Shown: one piece after another, positions 3,928 through 27,029 of the stretch
How positions within the stretch are numbered: position 1 is the first letter of the stretch
Layout: every line of letters begins with the position of its first letter
Virus record (IMG/VR): IMGVR_UViG_3300001472_000023
Location: 1 to 52,864 of that record
Reading direction: 5' to 3' (one strand)
DNA length: 52,864 nucleotides
DNA from: a virus
Program-made: the position numbers and the translations under genes
The notes under the pieces: model-generated
Databases searched by the model: none
The model's input: the letters and a program-made list of their open reading frames with translations, nothing else
What the model was told of the DNA's origin: nothing

Positions 3928-4242
3928 CTATTTTTTTAAGAATTTATCAGGATTCTTTTCAAACTTCTTCGCTAAAGCGATTATTCCATTGATAATCTCT
4001 GGGCTTACTACTCCAACTACACCATATGCTATAGCTTTAATGAAATCACTAATGGGAGCATCTTGAAGCACAAACCATAATATACCAGATAAGATTGTAG
4101 CAGCGACGACATTTCTAAGAAAAGTTCTCATGGAGTAAGCACCCTTGTAAGTGAGCATCCTTGCCACCATGCCAGCCGCCCCGATCATTGGTATGATCCA
4201 ACCTCCATCCATAAACTCTCTCATCAAGCTTTTAAAATCCAT
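3928..4242 (-). CDS. Putative holin
   Basis: A 104-residue membrane protein. Hydrophobic segments lie at about residues 14-32 (GGWIIPMIGAAGMVARML), 42-60 (NVVAATILSGILWFVL) and 68-92 (IKAIAYGVVGVVSPEIINGI). The C-terminus is short and basic (KKFEKNPDKFLKK). Size, two to three membrane segments, charged tail and position beside virion genes match phage holins, which permeabilise the inner membrane at the end of infection. The 'GGW..P..GA.GM.AR' start is a recurrent theme in small phage holin-type proteins. No endolysin is visible in the window, so this is not a complete lysis cassette. Confidence 0.65.
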   Translation of the reverse strand: MDFKSLMREFMDGGWIIPMIGAAGMVARMLTYKGAYSMRTFLRNVVAATILSGILWFVLQDAPISDFIKAIAYGVVGVVSPEIINGIIALAKKFEKNPDKFLKK

Positions 4243-4291: not shown

Positions 4292-5602
4292 ATGGGGGAA
4301 CATCGAAAAGACCTTGAAGAAGCAGAACATTTTGCTAAAAAATACTGTAACCCAAAAGATAGCGAAATTATCTCTGACTTAGATCGTCATGCAAGAGAAA
4401 CAGCATGGGCTTTGTTACAGAGAATTAAATACTTGGAACAGAAGTCTTGTGTTTGTGAAGAGTGTGGTGGTGAGGTGGACGATGAGCCTTTAGAAGAAGA
4501 AGTCTCTGAAGAAGAAGTTAAAGTTGAAAAAAATAAAGGTCAGGAGGTGAAAGCTGAAACCCCTGAGACTTCTACTATGGATAAGTTATCTGAGATAGCT
4601 GAGAAAAATAAAGATATTTTGGATAAAGCTGCAAAAGGTACGGCTGCTGCTGCCGCTGCTGGAGCAACCACCCAAACAGCAAGTGCCGCTACTGGCTTAA
4701 GCGCTTTTGTGCAAGAGACCGTTCAAAAAGTAGGAACAATTGGGGTCGCTGGAACTATGTCCATAGGTAGTGGAGCTTACTTCCAAGCCAAAACAACAAA
4801 AGAAAAGGGTACTGAAATAGCTGTTGTGGCAGAACAAGAGCACAAAGTATTTTCTAATTTAAATGATTTTACTGAAACAACAATTGGATTCCAGCCTTTT
4901 GGCGGCGTTACCGAAGCGATTGTAGAATATGCCGAAAAGGGTTATGGAGATGTCGTCGGTACATCTGAAGAAGGTTACAAGGGAGGCGAAGAAGGAGAAG
5001 GAGAAGAATCTAGCGGCGAAGAGGGTGAAGGCGAAACCTCAAATGAAGAAGCCTCTAACGAGGGAGAAGGAAATGAAGACGAGCCTACAGAAAAAAATAA
5101 TGAAGAAGGTGAAGGGGAAGCTGTTAAAGAAGAGGATTCTGTAAAGACTGAAGAAGAAACTGAAGGAGAGGAAACAGAAGAATCCGAAGAGGGGTCCGAA
5201 GAAGAGGGGTCCGAAGAAGAGGGGTCCGAAGAAGAGGAATCTGAAGGAGAGGAAACAGAAGAATCCGAAGAGGAATCCGAAGAGGAGGAATCCGAAGAGG
5301 AGGAATCCGAAGAGGAGGAATCCGAAGAAGAGGAATCTGAAGGAGAGGAAACAGAAGAATCCGAAGAGGAATCCGAAGAGGAGGAATCCGAAGAGGAGGA
5401 GCCTGAAGAAGAGGAGGAAGAATCTGAAGAGGGTGAGCCTGAAGAAAAAGAGCAGCCTGAAGAACAGTCTGAAGAGGGCGGAGAGGGCGAAGAGAAAAAA
5501 ACAGATATTGAGAATTCAGAAGAGACATTTGAACTAGAAGAAGATGATCAAGTCACTCAAGTCCCTGATGTGATTAAACTCCCTAATATGATAAGAAAAT
5601 AA
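4292..5602 (+). CDS. Very acidic Glu-rich repeat protein
   Basis: A 436-residue protein of unknown function. Residues 1-50 are helical and charged; residues 52-58 hold a CVCEECGG cluster (possible metal site). Residues about 113-165 are Ala/Gly/Thr-rich (six consecutive Ala in one place) and could be a membrane-associated or flexible segment. Residues 230-405 are an extremely acidic low-complexity tail of ESEEE-type repeats. The last 30 residues are more ordered. Such a tail could mimic nucleic acid charge, bind cations or act as a disordered spacer; I cannot choose. It opens the only plus-strand island in the left third and is followed by two membrane/secreted proteins. Its repeat is coded by near-identical DNA units, suggesting recent expansion. 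Confidence 0.7.
   Translation: MGEHRKDLEEAEHFAKKYCNPKDSEIISDLDRHARETAWALLQRIKYLEQKSCVCEECGGEVDDEPLEEEVSEEEVKVEKNKGQEVKAETPETSTMDKLSEIAEKNKDILDKAAKGTAAAAAAGATTQTASAATGLSAFVQETVQKVGTIGVAGTMSIGSGAYFQAKTTKEKGTEIAVVAEQEHKVFSNLNDFTETTIGFQPFGGVTEAIVEYAEKGYGDVVGTSEEGYKGGEEGEGEESSGEEGEGETSNEEASNEGEGNEDEPTEKNNEEGEGEAVKEEDSVKTEEETEGEETEESEEGSEEEGSEEEGSEEEESEGEETEESEEESEEEESEEEESEEEESEEEESEGEETEESEEESEEEESEEEEPEEEEEESEEGEPEEKEQPEEQSEEGGEGEEKKTDIENSEETFELEEDDQVTQVPDVIKLPNMIRK
5158..5445 (+). repeat. Tandem GAA/GAG-rich coding repeats with 96-bp duplication
   Basis: Units of 12-15 bases built on TCCGAAGAGGAGGAA repeat through the acidic tail. On top of this a longer block beginning AGGAATCTGAAGG occurs at 5235 and again at 5331, exactly 96 bases apart, with nearly identical sequence after it. 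Frame is kept, so it changes only tail length. Confidence 0.85.
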
Positions 5603-5607
5603 TTAAA

Positions 5608-5799
5608 ATGGAAGATTTATTCGACAAAATCCTAGCTCCTTATATGGGGTCAATGCCTGAGTTCATTATTTCTATATTAGGGCTTCTCGGAACACTTTCT
5701 TATATCGTTCCAGAGAATAGTAAACTAGGAAGAATACTTGGAAAATTAACTGGGAACTTAGGGAAATTGAAAAACTATTTGCTTAAAAAGAAAAAATGA
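5608..5799 (+). CDS. Small membrane protein, possible second holin or antiholin
   Basis: A 63-residue protein with one hydrophobic segment at about residues 15-35 (SMPEFIISILGLLGTLSYIV) followed by an amphipathic, strongly basic tail (KLTGNLGKLKNYLLKKKK). It starts five bases after the stop of the acidic protein and overlaps the next gene by 4 bases (ATGA), so the three are one operon. The single span plus basic tail resembles class III or pinholin-type proteins and small membrane-active peptides. With a three-span holin candidate encoded divergently at 3928-4242, it could be its partner or antagonist, but no direct evidence shows this. Confidence 0.55.
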   Translation: MEDLFDKILAPYMGSMPEFIISILGLLGTLSYIVPENSKLGRILGKLTGNLGKLKNYLLKKKK

Positions 5800-6632
5800 A
5801 ATATCTCTTACCTATACTTATACCCCTACTATGCCTAACTTCATTGCTGGAAGCGGCTATAATTACCTCTGTAGAAGGCAACATTCTCATAATAGACCCA
5901 ATAGGTAACCCGAATATTAATCCTGTAGTCAATATCCAAAGACCCATTCAGATCAGCACTGAGGAAGTTGTAGATATAGCCGAAAGTAAAGATAAAAAAT
6001 TAGATATGGTTATAACTTGGGACGCAGATGAAGAAGAGATTTATGATTTTTATGATGCTCCAAACTGGGATTTTTCTCAATCAGATTCTCTGGAATTAGA
6101 CAGGGATTCGCCCATCTCTAATATATTGACTATAACCGACGCCTTGATACTTGAAGATAGCCCCTCTTATTCAAATATTGAGATCGGGAATGGTTTTTCA
6201 GTAACGTTAAAATCTACCTCTTTAACCTTCCAAAACAATAATGGTTTTACTGGAGTCGATGATGATGACGATATTGTTTCTACTTTGAACATCTTTGAAG
6301 GCTCTGATATGGACGCTATGTTTTCTGCAATCGGGCTAGAAATAAATGTAGATTCAACTAGCAGCTTAACACTACGAGGGGCTGGAGACTCAATCAATAG
6401 TCAAACCGAAAGATCTATCGTTAACTTATCTCCAAATGCCCAACTCACTTTAAGTTCATTAGATCAATTCGCGGTACAAGGCGATGATATTTACTTCAAT
6501 GGTGTATCATTCTCCCAAAACCCCTCTATTTTAAAGTTTAATGGTAATACAGGTACTGCAATCCCAGAGATGAATTTTATTCTTTTTAGCGCAATCCCTA
6601 TTATATTGCTTTTAAATAACAAAAGACGATAG
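5796..6632 (+). CDS. Secreted protein with PEP-CTERM-like C-terminal sorting signal
   Basis: A 278-residue protein. Residues 1-21 are a signal peptide (MKYLLPILIPLLCLTSLLEA, with a possible cut after Ala). The mature region has no recognised catalytic motif. It looks like a beta-solenoid or adhesin-like repeat: SNILTITDALIL, NIEIGNGFSVTLKSTSLTF, LEINVDSTSSLTLRGAG, PNAQLTLSSLDQF. The end has the tripartite form of an exosortase substrate: IPE at 256-258, a short hydrophobic stretch at 261-273 and KRR at 276-278. Classical signals are P-E-P; here the third residue is Met. In bacteria such proteins are cut and attached by an exosortase and go with exopolysaccharide clusters. No exosortase gene is visible here, so the host's would be needed. 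A plain membrane anchor is the alternative. Confidence 0.65.
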   Translation: MKYLLPILIPLLCLTSLLEAAIITSVEGNILIIDPIGNPNINPVVNIQRPIQISTEEVVDIAESKDKKLDMVITWDADEEEIYDFYDAPNWDFSQSDSLELDRDSPISNILTITDALILEDSPSYSNIEIGNGFSVTLKSTSLTFQNNNGFTGVDDDDDIVSTLNIFEGSDMDAMFSAIGLEINVDSTSSLTLRGAGDSINSQTERSIVNLSPNAQLTLSSLDQFAVQGDDIYFNGVSFSQNPSILKFNGNTGTAIPEMNFILFSAIPIILLLNNKRR

Positions 6633-6650
6633 TGAATAATAAATAGATAA

Positions 6651-6680
6651 AAACGGCATCTTAAATAGATGCCGTTTTTT
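6651..6680. terminator. Bidirectional rho-independent terminator
   Basis: There is a perfect 11-bp stem, AAACGGCATCT (6651-6661) with AGATGCCGTTT (6667-6677), around TAAAT. T-rich tracts follow on both strands (TTTTTTATTT on plus, TTTTTATC on minus). It lies between the convergent stops at 6632 and 6683 and closes both operons. Confidence 0.92.
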
Positions 6681-6682
6681 AT

Positions 6683-6931
6683 TTAATCAAAAAGTTCTCT
6701 TTCTAATTTTCTGTATCGGGCATCAGAATGCCAGACTTCATCACTTTGAGGAGTGTACGTCCCCTCTTGAGTTTGAACTGGAATCCCCGCCTTGAGCTTC
6801 AAGGAAGACGGCTGATATATGTTTAAAGTCGTCGTTTTCGGACTTGAGCCGCCGCCGCAGGAGGTCAGCCCGATCAGAGGAGTTACTATCACCAGCAGCC
6901 CGTAATTCTTCAATTTCATTAATGAGTTCAT
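6683..6931 (-). CDS. Small lipoprotein, candidate outer-membrane spanin
   Basis: An 82-residue protein with a lipoprotein signal peptide: Lys at residues 6 and 8, hydrophobic GLLVIVTPLIGLTS, then the acceptor C25 followed by GGGSS. The mature part is only about 58 residues. Most of the gene lies, in another frame, inside the coiled-coil gene at 6741-7037. Embedded or overlapping lipoprotein genes are characteristic of phage Rz/Rz1 spanin pairs, which fuse inner and outer membrane in the last step of lysis of Gram-negative hosts. The partner here lacks an obvious membrane span, so the spanin call is tentative; the lipoprotein call is firm. Confidence 0.65.
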   Translation of the reverse strand: MNSLMKLKNYGLLVIVTPLIGLTSCGGGSSPKTTTLNIYQPSSLKLKAGIPVQTQEGTYTPQSDEVWHSDARYRKLERELFD

Positions 6932-7037
6932 TTTTTATCTTTCTATGGTTATTTTTAATTTCAAAAAAAGCTAATTTATTCCTTAATTCAAGATACAATT
7001 TAAGGCTTTGAGCTAAAGTTTTAATTAAGGACATCAT
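6741..7037 (-). CDS. Coiled-coil protein overlapping the lipoprotein gene
   Basis: The open frame reaches up to 7085, but the pair of ATGs at 7037 and 7034 is preferred: they follow AAAAGAAG and begin just after the stop of hldD (7045). The product is about 98 residues, MMSLIKTLAQSLKLYLELR..., mostly charged helix with heptad-like spacing to about residue 85, ending in a Gly/Ser-rich tail. The lipoprotein gene starts inside it in another reading frame. This is the gene order of an inner-membrane spanin and its lipoprotein partner, but no transmembrane segment is visible at the N-terminus; only an amphipathic helix. It could be peripheral, or a different helper. Confidence 0.55.
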   Translation of the reverse strand: MMSLIKTLAQSLKLYLELRNKLAFFEIKNNHRKIKNELINEIEELRAAGDSNSSDRADLLRRRLKSENDDFKHISAVFLEAQGGDSSSNSRGDVHSSK

Positions 7038-7044
7038 ACTTCTT

Positions 7045-7845
7045 TTATATACACTCCAAAACCTGTTTCCACTCCATCTCCCCAATCACAGAGGTTAACT
7101 TAGTTATATCTGCCTTAGTGAACTTTTGATACTGGCCCTTTAGGTTGGAAGGCATAGTAATCTGCTTAACTTTAGCCCCAGAGTTTTCAGCCATTCTGTC
7201 AGCAATATCTTTAAATGAAACAGCATTACCAGTCCCGACATTAAAAATACCAGAGTCATCATGATGAAGCATACGATAATGCACCTCACAAACGTCTTCG
7301 ACGTTAACAAAATCTCTGCTTGCTTTGGTCCTAAAAACTTTGATCTCTCCATCTTCCCGAACTTGTTTAATAAATTTAGTTATCGGACTGGCCTGTTCGC
7401 CTTTGTCCTCTTCGTGCGGACCATAGACATTGAAGTATCTAAATCCTTGATATGGATGATCTTCATTCAAGAGCCAATTGTCAAACATATATTTACTATA
7501 AGCGTAAGGACTTAATGGAATACAAAACTGATCCTCTTCGAAAGTATCAGCTAATCCATAAACAGAAGCACTGCTAGCATACTGGAATTTAATATCCATA
7601 GCTGCACATAACTGATAAAGAGTACCAGAAAAGATAAAATTCTCTTTTAAAATCTTTTTGAGGTCTGTCTCTGTAGTACTTGAGTTAGCCCCAAGGTGAA
7701 TTACTGCATCAATACCGTTTAAAGGCGGTAAATCCCCACCATTTTTTGTATCGTACCCTTCTACCTCAATACCCCTCTTAGATAAATAAGGGCAAAGGTT
7801 CTTGCCAATAAAACCTTCGCTACCAGTCACTAATACTCTTTTCAC
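7045..7845 (-). CDS. hldD: HldD-like NDP-heptose 6-epimerase (extended SDR family)
   Basis: A 266-residue NAD(P)-binding epimerase. It has the Rossmann start VTGSEGFIGKNL (residues 6-17) and the HldD-specific pattern GANSSTTETD. It also has YASSASVYG, the YAYSK catalytic Tyr-Lys pair, FRYFNVYGPHEEDKG, RDFVNVEDV and NLKGQYQKFTKAD near the end. These phrases in this order are those of ADP-L-glycero-D-manno-heptose 6-epimerase, which inverts C6 of the activated heptose for lipopolysaccharide core or surface glycans. It is somewhat shorter than the bacterial enzyme (about 310), mainly in the first third. It lies away from the main sugar cluster (21.6-28.4 kb) but on the same strand. Together they could supply a nucleotide-activated heptose. 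Confidence 0.82.
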   Translation of the reverse strand: MKRVLVTGSEGFIGKNLCPYLSKRGIEVEGYDTKNGGDLPPLNGIDAVIHLGANSSTTETDLKKILKENFIFSGTLYQLCAAMDIKFQYASSASVYGLADTFEEDQFCIPLSPYAYSKYMFDNWLLNEDHPYQGFRYFNVYGPHEEDKGEQASPITKFIKQVREDGEIKVFRTKASRDFVNVEDVCEVHYRMLHHDDSGIFNVGTGNAVSFKDIADRMAENSGAKVKQITMPSNLKGQYQKFTKADITKLTSVIGEMEWKQVLECI

Positions 7846-21643: not shown

Positions 21644-22672
21644 TTAAACTAATCTCATGTCATTATCAACCATTTTTCTTACAAGTCCAACAAAATCTGT
21701 TTTAGGTTCCCAGCCTAAATTTCTCCTAGCTTCCGAAGAGTCCCCCCAAAGCATATCTACTTCAGCAGGTCTATAGAATTTTGGGTTAATCTTCATCAAA
21801 GTCCTGCCTTCATGCACATACTTCTCATCTACACCCTTACCAACCCACTTACACTCTTCTACAGCAAAGCCAGCAAAATTAAACGCTTGTTCTACAAATT
21901 CCCTAATAGTATGAGTTTCATTTGAAGAAAGGACATACTCTCTAGGAGCTTCTTGATTCAACATTAACCAAACACCTTCTACAAAGTCTTCCGCATCACT
22001 CCAATCTCTTTTTGAATCAATATTCCCCAACTCAAGAGGTTTAAAATCATTTAAAATATACTCATTTTTAATACGAGCCACATTCTTTGTTATCTTACGA
22101 GTGACGAACTCTTCTCCACGACGAGTACCTTCATGATTAAACAACCAACCTTGAATAGCGTAAAGGTCGTAAGAATCCCTCCATACTTTTACCATGTGCC
22201 TCGCACTAGCCTTAGAAACACCGTAGGGGCTTCTTGGGCGCAAAGGGTGAAGCTCTGACTGGGGAGAGTATAAAACGTCTCCAAACTCTTCTGAAGAGCC
22301 AGCATTGTAGTAGCGGCAATTAGGACAATGTTTCCTTATAGCCTCTAGTTGATAAAGAACAGCCATTGCGTTTGTCTCCATATGATTAACTGGCATCTTC
22401 CAACTCACACCAACAAAAGAATTAGCAGCGAAATTGATGAAGTAATCTGGCTTGTGCTCTGCTATCACCAGCTCTGTATTAGTTTGATCAGCGACATCTA
22501 AGTCAATAAGTTTGAATCGAGGATTGTCTATTAGATGAGCAATATTATCGTGGTTTTTTACACTTAATCTGCGGACACCAGCTACAATAGTATGCTCAGT
22601 ATTCTTTAAGAGATAATCTGCCATAAAACTACCGTCTTGACCTGTTACCCCTGTAATAATAATCTTTTTCAT
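21644..22672 (-). CDS. gmd: GDP-mannose 4,6-dehydratase
   Basis: The start is taken at the ATG at 22672 (MKKIIITGVTGQDG), which overlaps the previous stop as ATGA; the frame is open 30 bases further but without need. The product is about 342 residues, the usual Gmd length. It has GVTGQDG for NAD(P), GSSEEFG with the catalytic Ser/Glu, YGVSK (Tyr-Lys) and FNHEGTRRGEEFVTRKI as substrate loop, then RDWSDAEDFVEGVWLML. It converts GDP-mannose to GDP-4-keto-6-deoxymannose, precursor of fucose, rhamnose, perosamine and similar sugars. No partner fucose synthase is seen in the window, so the host or another phage gene must finish the sugar. Confidence 0.95.
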   Translation of the reverse strand: MKKIIITGVTGQDGSFMADYLLKNTEHTIVAGVRRLSVKNHDNIAHLIDNPRFKLIDLDVADQTNTELVIAEHKPDYFINFAANSFVGVSWKMPVNHMETNAMAVLYQLEAIRKHCPNCRYYNAGSSEEFGDVLYSPQSELHPLRPRSPYGVSKASARHMVKVWRDSYDLYAIQGWLFNHEGTRRGEEFVTRKITKNVARIKNEYILNDFKPLELGNIDSKRDWSDAEDFVEGVWLMLNQEAPREYVLSSNETHTIREFVEQAFNFAGFAVEECKWVGKGVDEKYVHEGRTLMKINPKFYRPAEVDMLWGDSSEARRNLGWEPKTDFVGLVRKMVDNDMRLV

Positions 22673-23082
22673 ATGATATAGTCGCTGCAAACCCCAAAGC
22701 AATCGTAATATTTAGACCGCCAGTTTCTATCATTATCTACTATAATAGATTTATCGACAACAGGTTTATTGGGGAATGTCCAAATAAAACCTTTAGACGT
22801 TAAGGTGTAACTATCAGAATCATGCCAAAAATAATTTACATTGCTTGAGCAATACTGTAGAGCTTCTGCATTTTTACAATGAACCCAAAGACCTTCTTGA
22901 TCTAGAAACGCAGGATGAATAATATACTCTGGGATATCATGACCCAGAAAAAGTTTACCAAATTCGTACCACAGATCTATTTCACAATCATACCCTAAAC
23001 TTAGAACTTTTTTTATTTGTTCTGGATGGTTTTCTAAATCAGATGGGCCATTTAGATTACCTCTATGGGAAATAACCTTCAT
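22669..23082 (-). CDS. GDPD-like capsule-cluster protein
   Basis: A 137-residue protein. The start MKVISHRGNLNGPSDLENHPEQIKKVLSLGYDCEIDLWYEFGKLFLGHDIP has the HRG....EN and E-D-LW of glycerophosphodiester phosphodiesterases. GLWVHCKNAEAL, FWHDSDSYTLTSKGFIWTFP follow. The protein is far shorter than classical GDPD enzymes (about 250), but this short type recurs in bacterial capsule clusters next to sugar nucleotidyltransferases. It may trim or transfer phosphodiester-linked substituents on a glycan. Overlaps: one base with the cupin gene, four with gmd. Confidence 0.75.
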   Translation of the reverse strand: MKVISHRGNLNGPSDLENHPEQIKKVLSLGYDCEIDLWYEFGKLFLGHDIPEYIIHPAFLDQEGLWVHCKNAEALQYCSSNVNYFWHDSDSYTLTSKGFIWTFPNKPVVDKSIIVDNDRNWRSKYYDCFGVCSDYII

Positions 23083-23405
23083 TATCCTACTAAATACTTA
23101 TCCGCAGTATTCGAAGAAGTCCTTATCACAATCAAATGAGTATCTTCGTGAAATTTAGACTCTGATACCATATAAGGATCAATCACGAAAACCTCCCCTT
23201 CTATAAACCTTTCTCCATTTATCTCTACATCACCCTTTGTGACAACATTAATCTCTGTGCTTAATTTATGATAATGGTTCTGAGTTTCACAACCCTTATC
23301 ATACTTATGGTAGCCAACTTCAAAGTCTTGAGTTTTAAAAATGGAAGGCTCAAAGTTTCCAACCAACCACCCATTAACCATATCACCCAACTTATATTTT
23401 TTCAT
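23082..23405 (-). CDS. Small cupin-fold protein
   Basis: The start is taken at the ATG at 23405 (MKKYKLGDMVNGWLVGNF); the open frame reaches 23450 only through a TTG. The product is about 107 residues with cupin motifs: VGYHKYDKGCETQNHYHKLSTEINVV (metal His-x-His and Glu) and GEVFVIDPYMVSESKFHEDTHLIVIRT (second His). Such single-domain cupins in sugar clusters act as isomerases, epimerases or regulators of glycan synthesis. The substrate is unknown. It overlaps the nucleotidyltransferase-RpiB gene by 14 bases. Confidence 0.75.
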   Translation of the reverse strand: MKKYKLGDMVNGWLVGNFEPSIFKTQDFEVGYHKYDKGCETQNHYHKLSTEINVVTKGDVEINGERFIEGEVFVIDPYMVSESKFHEDTHLIVIRTSSNTADKYLVG

Positions 23406-24567
23406 TGAATTCAGCTTTAGTGATTCTCGGGATATGCCTACCCCCGTCAAAAGAGGTTCTTTCCCAGATATCTACCATGTTTGAAAGCATGCTTGCATCA
23501 ACAACTCTAGATGGTACTGAAAAATAATTAGCACAATTATGTTTTATCGAATATTCTGCTGCGTATTCGTCGTAAACAACAGCGGCTCTTACACCTTTAT
23601 TTTTACTACCCGCTATATTGACTCCTTGCCCAGTCCTACAAAAAGCTATAACATGATCACTGAACCCTCTATTTAGAGCATCTATAGCTTGCCCAACATA
23701 ATCATTGTAATCACAATCTTTATCGACAAAAGTTCCATAATCAACGTAACGGAGACCTCTTTCAGTTAAGATTTTACAAGCTTCATTTTTTAAGTCAAAC
23801 CCAGAATGGTCAGCGCATATTGCTATTGGCTTATCTCCAAATTTAACTAAGGAGTGAGTTAAATAAAACTCTAATTCTTCTGGAGTCCCCATCAAGTGCA
23901 TCTTATTAACCTCATTTATATTTACCTTAGCCCCATCTTTAATCATAAGGTTATAAAGAGGACAGATGTAAAACTCTCCACGAGTCATAATTTCCTGATC
24001 AATCATTTGTTCTGCATACTTCACGAATGAAGCCCCACTACCAAATGTGTAAACGCCAACCGCCGCATTCTCACTGATAACTTCTTTTTCCGCTGTTTTT
24101 GTAACGAAACCCTCGTCATTTAATTTGGCATAACTATAACCATTATTATTACTCTTGAATGTAAGAATCGTTCCATCTACATCTGGTTCTATATCAGTTG
24201 GATCAAAAAAATCTTCGAAGTAAACATCCAATGTGTAAATCATTAATGGATTATCATTATTTATATAATTCTTCGCCATTAAACAAGTTTCTACCGAACC
24301 TCTTGTTACATGATCTAGAATAATTAACTTTATGTCTTCTCCATACTTTTGTTTTAAAATCTTATCTAAAGAGTAATCATTAACGTGGTCTCTCCGCAAA
24401 CAAAAAATTAAATTACACCGATCTTTATTTAAAATTGAACTTAAACTAAGATCAATCATTTGAGTATCACCAACCATAATTAATTGTTTAGGCATCACGT
24501 AACCCTCATCAACAAATCTTTGCCCCCTCCCGGCGATAGGTATTAATATGTTTGTTTTATTTTTCAT
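23392..24567 (-). CDS. Fused sugar nucleotidyltransferase - RpiB/LacB-type isomerase
   Basis: A 391-residue two-domain protein. Residues 1-240 are a nucleotidyltransferase: IPIAGRGQRFVDEGYVMPKQLI gives the GxGxRF...PK site, TLDVYFED the metal Asp, NAAVGVYTFGS later. Residues 245-391 are a complete RpiB/LacB-family sugar-phosphate isomerase: KPIAICADHSGFDLKNE, DYGTFVDKDCDYNDYVGQA, AFCRTGQGVNIAGSKNKGVRAAVVYDEYAAEYS, HNCANYFSVPSRVV and DGGRHIPRI. The catalytic C..TG..... site (C at about 309) is kept, although CGTGIG is changed to CRTGQG. One chain thus offers an aldose-ketose phosphate isomerase and a nucleotide activation step. With the kinase, phosphatase and HldD it could complete an NDP-sugar route. 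Overlaps the kinase gene by 11 bases. Confidence 0.88.
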   Translation of the reverse strand: MKNKTNILIPIAGRGQRFVDEGYVMPKQLIMVGDTQMIDLSLSSILNKDRCNLIFCLRRDHVNDYSLDKILKQKYGEDIKLIILDHVTRGSVETCLMAKNYINNDNPLMIYTLDVYFEDFFDPTDIEPDVDGTILTFKSNNNGYSYAKLNDEGFVTKTAEKEVISENAAVGVYTFGSGASFVKYAEQMIDQEIMTRGEFYICPLYNLMIKDGAKVNINEVNKMHLMGTPEELEFYLTHSLVKFGDKPIAICADHSGFDLKNEACKILTERGLRYVDYGTFVDKDCDYNDYVGQAIDALNRGFSDHVIAFCRTGQGVNIAGSKNKGVRAAVVYDEYAAEYSIKHNCANYFSVPSRVVDASMLSNMVDIWERTSFDGGRHIPRITKAEFNEKI

Positions 24568-25249
24568 TTTTTGATTTGATTAGATTAAATGTTTTTTTAT
24601 GGCTGTCACTTATTATTTTTTCTAAACTAACACCTTTGCTATCAATTAAATAACTTATAACAGCGGCTGCAAACATATCGCCCGCTCCAAGTATATTCGC
24701 ATCAGTTAAAGTTTTTTCAATTTCCGTTTCAAAAAAATCTCCGTTTTTTCTGTAGAAATAACTCCCGTGAGAGTGGTGAACCAAAATGTCCCCTTTGACA
24801 AGTTTTTTCAATTCTTCCACAGGCAACCATAAATCGTCATCAGAAATAAATAACAAATCCACATACTTTAATAACTCAACGTCTTTTAAGCTTAAACCAG
24901 CGCAAATATCCGCAGATACAAATTTACTTTTGGTAGCAACCTCTGAGATAAATCCAGTCTCCTTTAATTGATTTAAATATAAAACATGAGACCAGTCTGA
25001 ATTATGTATGAATGGAATTCTTTTCTTCAAAGAAAGAGATGCTTTAGAAGATCTTCTACTCTTATCCGTATCAACGTAAATTAAAGCTTCTCCTATTTCA
25101 GTAGGCTCTACATGAACTTTATGATTACACACTTGTATCAGAGCATCCCAAACATTAGCTAATCCACCAACAGTTTCATGGATCTTGATCCCATCGAAAA
25201 TAGTATCATGTGTCAGATGGCCATATAAGCTTATTTCAAAATTTTTCAT
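24557..25249 (-). CDS. PfkB-family sugar kinase
   Basis: A 230-residue protein, shorter than the usual 300. The N-terminal SLYGHLTHDTIFDG...ETVGGLANVWDALI corresponds to the PfkB start and Gly-Gly substrate motif. VSADICAG, LLFISDDDLWL and DANILGAGDMFAAAVISYL follow; the last is the PfkB GAGD site with the catalytic Asp. It should phosphorylate a sugar or sugar phosphate with ATP. HldE/HldA heptose kinases belong to this family. Given HldD and GT9 in this window, heptose-phosphate is an attractive substrate, but sequence alone does not show it. Confidence 0.8.
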   Translation of the reverse strand: MKNFEISLYGHLTHDTIFDGIKIHETVGGLANVWDALIQVCNHKVHVEPTEIGEALIYVDTDKSRRSSKASLSLKKRIPFIHNSDWSHVLYLNQLKETGFISEVATKSKFVSADICAGLSLKDVELLKYVDLLFISDDDLWLPVEELKKLVKGDILVHHSHGSYFYRKNGDFFETEIEKTLTDANILGAGDMFAAAVISYLIDSKGVSLEKIISDSHKKTFNLIKSKNEK

Positions 25250-25760
25250 CTTTATCTAAAGCTAAGAAATCATTTAGTAAGAATTTTTTTACAAGACCCC
25301 TAGAAGAGCATACGTTATACAATTCGTCTAAAACATTTTCTCCCCCTTTGCTATGAAGGGTATTCTGATTACCACAAATATCTCTTATCTCGGAAACAGC
25401 GTCTTTAGGGCAAAATTTATAAGAAACTCTTTCCATTATGGGAGCGTCAAATATATCATCTCCTATAAAACACATTGAATCTTCTGTAACGGAGTATTTA
25501 TTCTTAAATTCAGATATAAAAGAAGACTTGCATTTATCGCGAGCATAATAAAAATCTAAATTTCTATTTAAAGCGATAGACTCATTGATATTCTTATCTC
25601 CTGATAAAAATATAACCCTACAAGAAGAAGCTTTAAACTTTTTAATTGCAGAAAAATCCTTGTCACAAAAGGTCTTATACTTAGCTAACCCAGTGTCATC
25701 ATAATACTTTTTACCGTCAGTCAACACTCCGTCTACATCCAATATCAAAAGCTTTATCAT
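25236..25760 (-). CDS. KdsC-like HAD sugar-phosphate phosphatase
   Basis: The start is taken at the ATG at 25760 (MIKLLILDVDGVLTDGKKYYD), one base beyond the upstream stop; the longer frame needs TTG. The product is about 174 residues. HAD motif I is DVDGVLTDG, motif II FLSGD, motif III a Lys in RDKCKSS, motif IV FIGDDIFDAPIM. Size and lack of a cap match the KdsC/tetrameric C0 class, which removes phosphate from 3-deoxy-octulosonate 8-phosphate and related sugars. Here it would be the dephosphorylation step in the NDP-sugar route. Overlaps the kinase gene by 14 bases. Confidence 0.85.
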   Translation of the reverse strand: MIKLLILDVDGVLTDGKKYYDDTGLAKYKTFCDKDFSAIKKFKASSCRVIFLSGDKNINESIALNRNLDFYYARDKCKSSFISEFKNKYSVTEDSMCFIGDDIFDAPIMERVSYKFCPKDAVSEIRDICGNQNTLHSKGGENVLDELYNVCSSRGLVKKFLLNDFLALDKDEKF

Positions 25761-25761
25761 T

Positions 25762-26427
25762 TTATCTTTTTGGGAAGGCTTCATTGCCATCAATTGTTAT
25801 ATGAGCGTTTTCAGACATGTCGCAATTATACCTAATGCAATGGATATCTAAAGAGTCCTTTACTAAGTCTACATTAATAAAACTCATCTTGTCAACCATT
25901 TCCTCATAAGTCCACCCGTTTTTTTTCATTATGTTATAACATAATTGTTTTTCTGGTTGATTAAAATCAGGACCAACTTGACGGTAAGACCATAAATCTA
26001 AAGCGTAATCAAGCCCACTAAATGTAACGAAATCATGCATCTCATGTATGCTTGGTTTGTAATTGAGATACGAGCATAAAGAATCCTCCTTTATCATTTT
26101 TTCAAAAGCCATACGGATAACTCCTTTTTGATTTGTCCATAATAAATCACCTCTAACTTTAACTATCCAAGGTTTATTTATTGCACGAATACCTGCCTCA
26201 GAACTCATGCATTGTAAATTTATATTATTATAACCCTTAAACGATGGGGTTGTATTTAAAATAATAGGGACTTGCTTGGCAACCTCTTTTATATTCTCTA
26301 TTGGCTCATTATCCCAAGTAGACCAAACGTAAGAAAAGCTCTGGTCTAAGTTAGATAAAACCCTTTCGTAGTTATTCGTTGGTCCTTGGATAACTATTCC
26401 GACATCATTTAAATCAAAGTCCCTCAT
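25762..26427 (-). CDS. WavE-like surface-glycan protein
   Basis: A 221-residue protein. The opening DVGIVIQGPTNNYERVLSNLDQSFSYVWSTWDNEP resembles the WavE family from lipopolysaccharide core clusters ('IQGP.........L......Y.....STW'). LQCMSSEAGIRAINKPWIVKVRGDLLWTN follows, with the 'K.R.D' site of a GT-A-like fold. It is probably a glycosyl- or phosphosugar transferase for the surface glycan. ATGA overlap with the GT2 gene upstream links the two. Specificity is unknown. Confidence 0.7.
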   Translation of the reverse strand: MRDFDLNDVGIVIQGPTNNYERVLSNLDQSFSYVWSTWDNEPIENIKEVAKQVPIILNTTPSFKGYNNINLQCMSSEAGIRAINKPWIVKVRGDLLWTNQKGVIRMAFEKMIKEDSLCSYLNYKPSIHEMHDFVTFSGLDYALDLWSYRQVGPDFNQPEKQLCYNIMKKNGWTYEEMVDKMSFINVDLVKDSLDIHCIRYNCDMSENAHITIDGNEAFPKR

Positions 26428-27029
26428 ATCTTGTCGTATAATTGATTTTGTTTTTTTTGTTTATCTATATCTTTAACGTGAAGAATACTAAACATGGGGT
26501 CTATTTGAGATTGCCCACCAGAGCGAAACCCCTTTGGGATTTCATGCACCTTACCCTCCCACCTAATGTGGCCTTGAGTGGACATAAATCTTAATTGATA
26601 GTCAGGATAACCTTCCCAACCCATATCATTAATTTGCCAATTAAAATTTTTAATATCTTTTTCTGTAGCACCTCTAACTACATTAATCCGAGGAACAGCA
26701 AATAAATCATATTGACATGACTTAGCTACATTCCTAATTAAATTCAAAAGGGTAAATGGAATTTGCTCATCAGCATCTATTTGGAATAAAAAGGGCTTGG
26801 TAGCATATTTAAATAATTCGTTCTTAAATTCTGCAAAATCATTTTGAAAATCAAAATACTTTAAAGTTAATCCAACATATCCGCAAAAATCTTGTATTTC
26901 CTTCGTTACTTTGTTTTTATCTGCTAAGACAATAACCTCCTCTTCTGGTAAAATATAAGGTTCAAGTGAATTAATTAATCTTTTAAATTCAAAAAACTCG
27001 TCTGCTACAGTTATTCCATAAGTAATCAT
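26424..27029 (-). CDS. GT2-family glycosyltransferase
   Basis: A 201-residue GT-A enzyme. MITYGITVADEFFEFKRLINSL is the Rossmann-like start. DFQNDFAEFKNELFKYATKPFLFQIDADEQIP (Asp-Ala-Asp at about 80-83) is the metal/nucleotide-sugar site. PDYQLRFMSTQGHIRWEGKVHEIPKG has the acceptor-side R and W-x-x-x-x-H-E motif found in many compact GT2 enzymes of phages. It transfers a sugar to a glycan or protein. It is shorter than typical GT2 but has all core elements. Confidence 0.85.
   Translation of the reverse strand: MITYGITVADEFFEFKRLINSLEPYILPEEEVIVLADKNKVTKEIQDFCGYVGLTLKYFDFQNDFAEFKNELFKYATKPFLFQIDADEQIPFTLLNLIRNVAKSCQYDLFAVPRINVVRGATEKDIKNFNWQINDMGWEGYPDYQLRFMSTQGHIRWEGKVHEIPKGFRSGGQSQIDPMFSILHVKDIDKQKKQNQLYDKI

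Follow-up and report, generated by a model that had tools for sequence, protein, structure and literature searches.

A conserved PEP-CTERM-like tail on the exchangeable exported proteins of a marine phage cassette

In a group of uncultured marine phages, an exported protein is encoded by the last gene of a translationally coupled three-gene cassette (an acidic protein, a 63-aa membrane protein, and the exported protein), and it ends in a tail whose design stays constant while recombination exchanges the passengers that carry it. The cassette is present in about 60 IMG/VR contigs, including the 52,864-base record analyzed here (the window), which also encodes a tape-measure protein, DNA polymerase III alpha, and a DnaB-like helicase. 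The product of the window's third cassette gene (5796-6632) is probably a cassette payload with a PEP-CTERM-like signal, which a host exosortase would cut for delivery to the cell surface or its polysaccharide. The sorting-like layout of this protein is more than chance, because intact relatives keep the tail, an unrelated passenger in the same slot ends alike, and a profile hidden Markov model (HMM) built from the tails of one family recognizes those of the other.

Cassette layout and neighboring genes

The cassette and its surroundings comprise the following features (open reading frames unless another basis is given).

3928-4242, minus strand: small membrane protein, probable holin
4292-5602, plus strand: first cassette gene, very acidic 436-aa protein with Glu-rich low-complexity repeats
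5608-5799, plus strand: second cassette gene, 63-aa protein, basic at the C-terminus, with a single hydrophobic segment
5796-6632, plus strand: third cassette gene, exported 278-aa protein with a sorting-type tail (open reading frame and relatives)
5796-5858, plus strand: signal peptide, residues 1-21 (sequence inspection and relatives)
5859-6560, plus strand: passenger, residues 22-255 (composition and structure model)
6561-6629, plus strand: sorting-type tail, residues 256-278 (conservation, mosaic joint, and cross-family HMM)
6649-6679, no strand assigned: terminator-like hairpin, bidirectional, between the cassette and the convergent lysis genes
6683-6931, minus strand: o-spanin-like 82-aa lipoprotein (lipobox LTSC) whose gene is nested in the one that follows
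6741-7085, minus strand: charged coiled-coil-like protein whose gene overlaps that of the lipoprotein

The preliminary description of 5796-6632 needs one correction: the gene does not stand alone but sits third in a coupled cassette. In all 31 window-type relatives, the stop codon of the 63-aa gene overlaps the start codon of the third gene as ATGA. The acidic protein, whose gene precedes the 63-aa gene in relatives of both passenger types described below, has no match in Pfam, NCBIfam, or PHROG. Roughly its second half consists of Glu/Ser/Gly-rich low-complexity repeats, and a spurious open reading frame (5124-5528) runs on the reverse strand of this repeat region.

The probable holin gene, so named by inference, is divergent from the cassette, with 49 bases between them, and lies beside the cassette in many relatives. 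On the other side, the lipobox Cys of the 82-aa lipoprotein is invariant among relatives, and its Rz-like PHROG matches are sub-threshold only; the nested arrangement suggests that the product of 6741-7085 is a putative inner spanin partner. These lysis genes are found on the opposite side of the cassette in some relatives. They are adjoined, in the window and conservedly in relatives, by a gene for an ADP-heptose epimerase-like protein (7045-7845; TIGR02197, E value = 1.5e-67, under the equivalog cutoff). In three relatives (L014, L029, and L030), a sigma-70-like box, TTTACA-16/17-TATAAT, lies 3' of the third gene and about 6 bases before an ATG, a position that suggests possible leaderless transcription; clear genome-wide enrichment of this motif was not seen. 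A sugar-nucleotide/glycosylation cluster at 21644-27029 encodes GDP-mannose dehydratase-like, cupin, PfkB-like kinase, HAD phosphatase, and glycosyltransferase proteins, together with a fusion of a nucleotidyltransferase and an RpiB-type isomerase (23392-24567). The window's sugar genes, which the preliminary description had brought into its proposal of exopolysaccharide remodeling, superinfection exclusion, or aggregation as conceivable roles, show no linkage to the cassette.

The protein layout first described (278 aa, a signal peptide, IPE, a hydrophobic stretch, and KRR) proved exact on translation. The N-terminus, MKYLLPILIPLLCLTSLLEAA, is signal-like and is probably cut by signal peptidase I after about A20/A21, and the tail consists of IPE (256-258), M259, a hydrophobic stretch (261-273), and KRR (276-278). 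No other open reading frame longer than 100 aa in the window combines an N-terminal hydrophobic segment with a C-terminal hydrophobic segment and basic end. The passenger (residues 22-255) is rich in Ser and Asn, contains no Cys, and has a K+R content of 3.8%. The full protein has no convincing match to Pfam, NCBIfam, or PHROG families; a 24-residue sub-threshold match of the passenger to STT3_PglB_C (Pfam) was dismissed as chance. A structure model of residues 23-258 has a mean pLDDT of 53, with higher values in the second half (mostly 58-87 per block of ten), where regular, solenoid-type beta strands are predicted at moderate confidence. Fold searches with the model gave no significant structural match; among the top-ranking nonsignificant ones are solenoids, for example, antigen 43 and ice-binding proteins. 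The solenoid fold raised earlier is weakly supported, and we do not claim it because the structure model is too weak.

Tail conservation and passenger exchange

Two IMG/VR scans recovered 36 loci; no relatives of the 278-aa protein were found among INPHARED phages, PLSDB plasmids, or GTDB genomes. All intact window-type relatives have TAIPE, after which come one variable position, a hydrophobic segment, and a basic terminus, and the loss of the IPE and KRR ends that would have spoken against the preliminary description was not seen. IPE is invariant despite much synonymous change, although amino acid identity among relatives, 82% in the body, is down to 54% for the hydrophobic segment and 42% for the end. 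One relative, L034, has a literal IPEP, the sole true PEP among the 31 window-type relatives.

Distances in body and tail are moderately correlated (r = 0.45). The bodies of L011 and L014 are 9% different and their hydrophobic segments 75% different, whereas the corresponding figures for L007 and L019 are 21% and 0%. DNA profiles, which reach into the downstream flank, place a mosaic joint at about nucleotide 765, that is, at the IPE codons; part of the tail variation therefore moves with the flank by recombination. Every tail that arrives by recombination shares one design.

With the 63-aa protein as the query, we found 64 loci. In 30 complete cassettes, a third gene that overlaps its neighbor at the spacing of the window type encodes another exported protein of about 240-250 residues, which profile comparison showed to be unrelated to the window passenger. 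Tails of this second kind include VPEANSLLFLTVALLPLFRRKR, IPEASVALLSGLSILLLLQRRKFYR, and APELGSSLFGGLGCLLLLQRRRR. All 61 complete third genes (31 window-type and 30 of the second kind) end in PE followed by 19-22 residues, hydrophobic and then basic. There are 38 distinct tails among them, and the 61 do not represent 61 independent events because many of the contigs are closely related. PE is invariant even though the linker that precedes it differs in length, while the third motif residue is A, S, I, V, M, or F, most often A (M in the window, and P only in L034). The exchange is clearest in a sister phage, L097, in which most of the flanking DNA is >80% identical to that of the window phage and a nonhomologous passenger lies between a signal peptide and a tail that both resemble those of the window phage. 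That the tail is kept while the rest is swapped for an unrelated protein suggests that a host exosortase is used for surface placement.

Relation of the tail to PEP-CTERM signals

Proteins of the PEP-CTERM/exosortase (EpsH) system (TIGR02595/PF07589) likewise have a signal peptide, PE, a short hydrophobic stretch, and a basic C-terminal end, and their modular tail is borne by diverse passengers without Cys, with few basic residues, and with more Ser, Asn, and Thr (PMC1569441). The phage proteins share this composition and, by inspection, the signal peptide, and all 61 third genes place a short hydrophobic segment and a basic cluster at the extreme C-terminus. They differ in that the third motif residue is rarely Pro, in HMM scores below the cutoff, in being phage-borne without an exosortase of their own, and in belonging to a three-gene operon. 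The window tail reads IPEM in place of Pro-Glu-Pro, and neither the full protein nor the tail alone matched a PEP-CTERM HMM, while a positive control did. No phage tail reached the TIGR02595/PF07589 cutoff, the nearest being L034 (15.2 bits, versus 16 bits for TIGR02595). Since the window tail falls short on two formal tests of PEP-CTERM membership, the motif and the score, it should not be filed there.

Relatives came closer to known families. Among the window-type tails, L034 alone scored against bacterial PEP-CTERM models, matching NF038129 (E value = 0.0016) and XDP1 (E value = 0.0022). All 16 scanned second-kind proteins matched NF038120 (QFxxD, a PEP-CTERM family; best E value = 5.9e-6), and second-kind proteins also matched floc_PepA (best E value = 3.4e-6). 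These scores are well below the curated cutoffs of 80 bits (about 26 bits for one member against NF038120), so the similarity is significant but does not amount to membership; the window passenger itself is unmatched. When the tail was removed, the NF038120 match was lost in 6 of 6 rescanned proteins, one of which kept a weak floc_PepA match. The HMM check proposed in the preliminary description thus went against the window tail and in favor of its relatives.

An HMM built from second-kind tails only scored the window tail at 16.9 bits, above all 1,764 decoy C-termini, and 16 of 19 window-type tails exceeded the best noncassette decoy among them (6.8 bits). This HMM gave no score to two canonical proteobacterial-type PEP-CTERM tails, which makes the phage tails a dialect, describable as [IVAL]PEx, about 14 hydrophobic residues, and a basic end. 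The earlier exosortase-substrate reading is supported in part: the tail is a conserved module, but the HMM match of the window tail itself is missing.

The protein might instead be secreted and held in the inner membrane by a plain C-terminal anchor, facing the periplasm, with PE as a conserved juxtamembrane turn; it could then act in the periplasm, for example, in superinfection exclusion as T4 Spackle does. We regard this as possible but unlikely. It accommodates the unmatched window tail and an exosortase that is unproven in the host, and a hydrophobic stretch with a basic end fits the positive-inside rule. What it explains poorly is that PE persists on both kinds of passenger, unrelated as these are and with linkers of differing length, that the tail behaves as a separate module, and that the family-level PEP-CTERM matches depend on the tail. 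An exosortase-type signal is favored over such an anchor by the presence of the tail module on two passengers, by the literal PEP of L034, and by the tail dependence of the second-kind scores, and the window tail most likely works like a PEP-CTERM signal. The exosortase reading has to be weighed against the failed match of the window tail, the true PEP in only 1 of 31 window-type relatives, the canonical tails that the phage HMM leaves unscored, the exosortase-free phage contigs, the near absence of canonical PEP-CTERM and the lack of observed phage-like tails in Flavobacteriaceae (see below), and the fact that a simple anchor would likewise keep a hydrophobic segment and a basic end.

Candidate hosts and proposed function

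No exosortase was encoded in the phage contigs searched, so the host would supply it; the candidate hosts are XrtF-bearing Flavobacteriaceae or a bacterium of the PVC group. A phage contig that is 77-79% identical in DNA to the window phage sits in the Flavobacteriaceae MAG UBA5079, which encodes XrtF (230 bits), and no exosortase was found in the other MAGs tested. One candidate host lineage thus carries an exosortase, which the preliminary description would require of the actual host. Contigs of the phage group (L053, L054, L055, and L060) occur in the MAGs UBA5079, ERR2094171_bin.138 (Flavobacteriaceae, with more than one phage contig), and Hel_238_bin13. Because the last is a Lokiarchaeota MAG, binning is unreliable here, and we distrust a host call made from it despite the two Flavobacteriaceae MAGs. 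DNA searches of 396 Flavobacteriales found a phage contig only in UBA5079 and no convincing CRISPR spacer match, and host searches by the tail HMM, the lysis proteins, and the second passenger were negative.

Canonical PEP-CTERM is nearly absent from sampled Flavobacteriaceae (3 of 150 genomes). In these three genomes, the matches occupy small contigs or sit close to the end of a contig and are probably contamination; the two inspected (L082 and L083) resemble proteobacterial proteins. No phage-like tails were seen in 120 Flavobacteriaceae genomes. The phage genes are without Shine-Dalgarno sites, which precede 27 of 259 starts (10%), compared with 242 of 1,623 internal Met codons (15%), in the window together with G004, G002, G003, and G007. 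Such absence is reported for Bacteroidota and for some Verrucomicrobia, including Akkermansia (PMC10783764), which has 23 PEP-CTERM proteins (PMC4960237).

The tail may also be a signal for another C-terminal processing enzyme, such as XrtF or an uncharacterized exosortase relative, rather than for an EpsH-type exosortase. This is a subcase of exosortase-type processing, its confidence overlaps that of the preferred reading, and we hold it to be improbable. It would account for a dialect different from TIGR02595, for the related contig in the XrtF-encoding UBA5079, and for the Bacteroidota-like lack of Shine-Dalgarno sites. No XrtF targets are known, and they are predicted not to resemble PEP-CTERM (PMC10936215). 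The comparison with XrtF of Flavobacterium johnsoniae (TIGR04128) lies in its membership of the exosortase family and in the occurrence of XrtF in a Flavobacteriaceae MAG into which a related phage contig is binned. Weighing on the other side are the 120 Flavobacteriaceae genomes without similar tails, the unreliable binning that also places related contigs in a Lokiarchaeota MAG, and the Shine-Dalgarno-poor Verrucomicrobia. That these phages infect Flavobacteriaceae and that [IVAL]PEx is the XrtF signal is, as a joint proposition, similarly doubtful.

A role as a lysis accessory, in which the exported protein helps envelope disruption or its timing, is very unlikely: its conserved position between holin-like and spanin-like genes and its coupling to a small membrane protein would suit it, but an o-spanin-type lipoprotein is already encoded, cassette and lysis genes are transcribed in opposite directions, and free passenger exchange would be odd for a lysis enzyme. 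Nor is the third-gene protein a unimolecular spanin, as the signal peptides of its relatives lack a conserved lipobox or Cys.

For the preferred exosortase-type signal, recognition, cleavage, surface location, and biological purpose are inferred; the route proposed here follows the published exosortase model (PMC12188702; PMC1569441) as an analogy. Sec would export the third-gene protein, the tail would tether it in the inner membrane, and a host exosortase would cut at or near PE. The cleaved protein would then be passed to the cell surface or extracellular polysaccharide, where it may alter the infected cell's exterior, for example, by receptor masking or by changed adhesion or release.

By description, the protein can be set beside superinfection-exclusion and surface proteins such as T4 Spackle and P22 SieA, which are also phage accessory proteins exported to the envelope. 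To our knowledge, no protein of this type has a C-terminal sorting signal. In agreement with the preliminary description, which knew of no established case, our literature search found no phage use of PEP-CTERM/exosortase sorting.

If the exosortase reading is true, phages exploit a host surface-sorting enzyme by placing its signal on exchangeable payloads, a route to act on the cell surface of which we found no description in the literature searched. The tails would then point to an undescribed dialect of the exosortase signal and, if the XrtF reading applies, the cassette would reveal an XrtF substrate motif and the first viral exosortase sorting. Such phages would also offer a testable entry to exosortase biology, in which substrates and outer membrane export are poorly understood.
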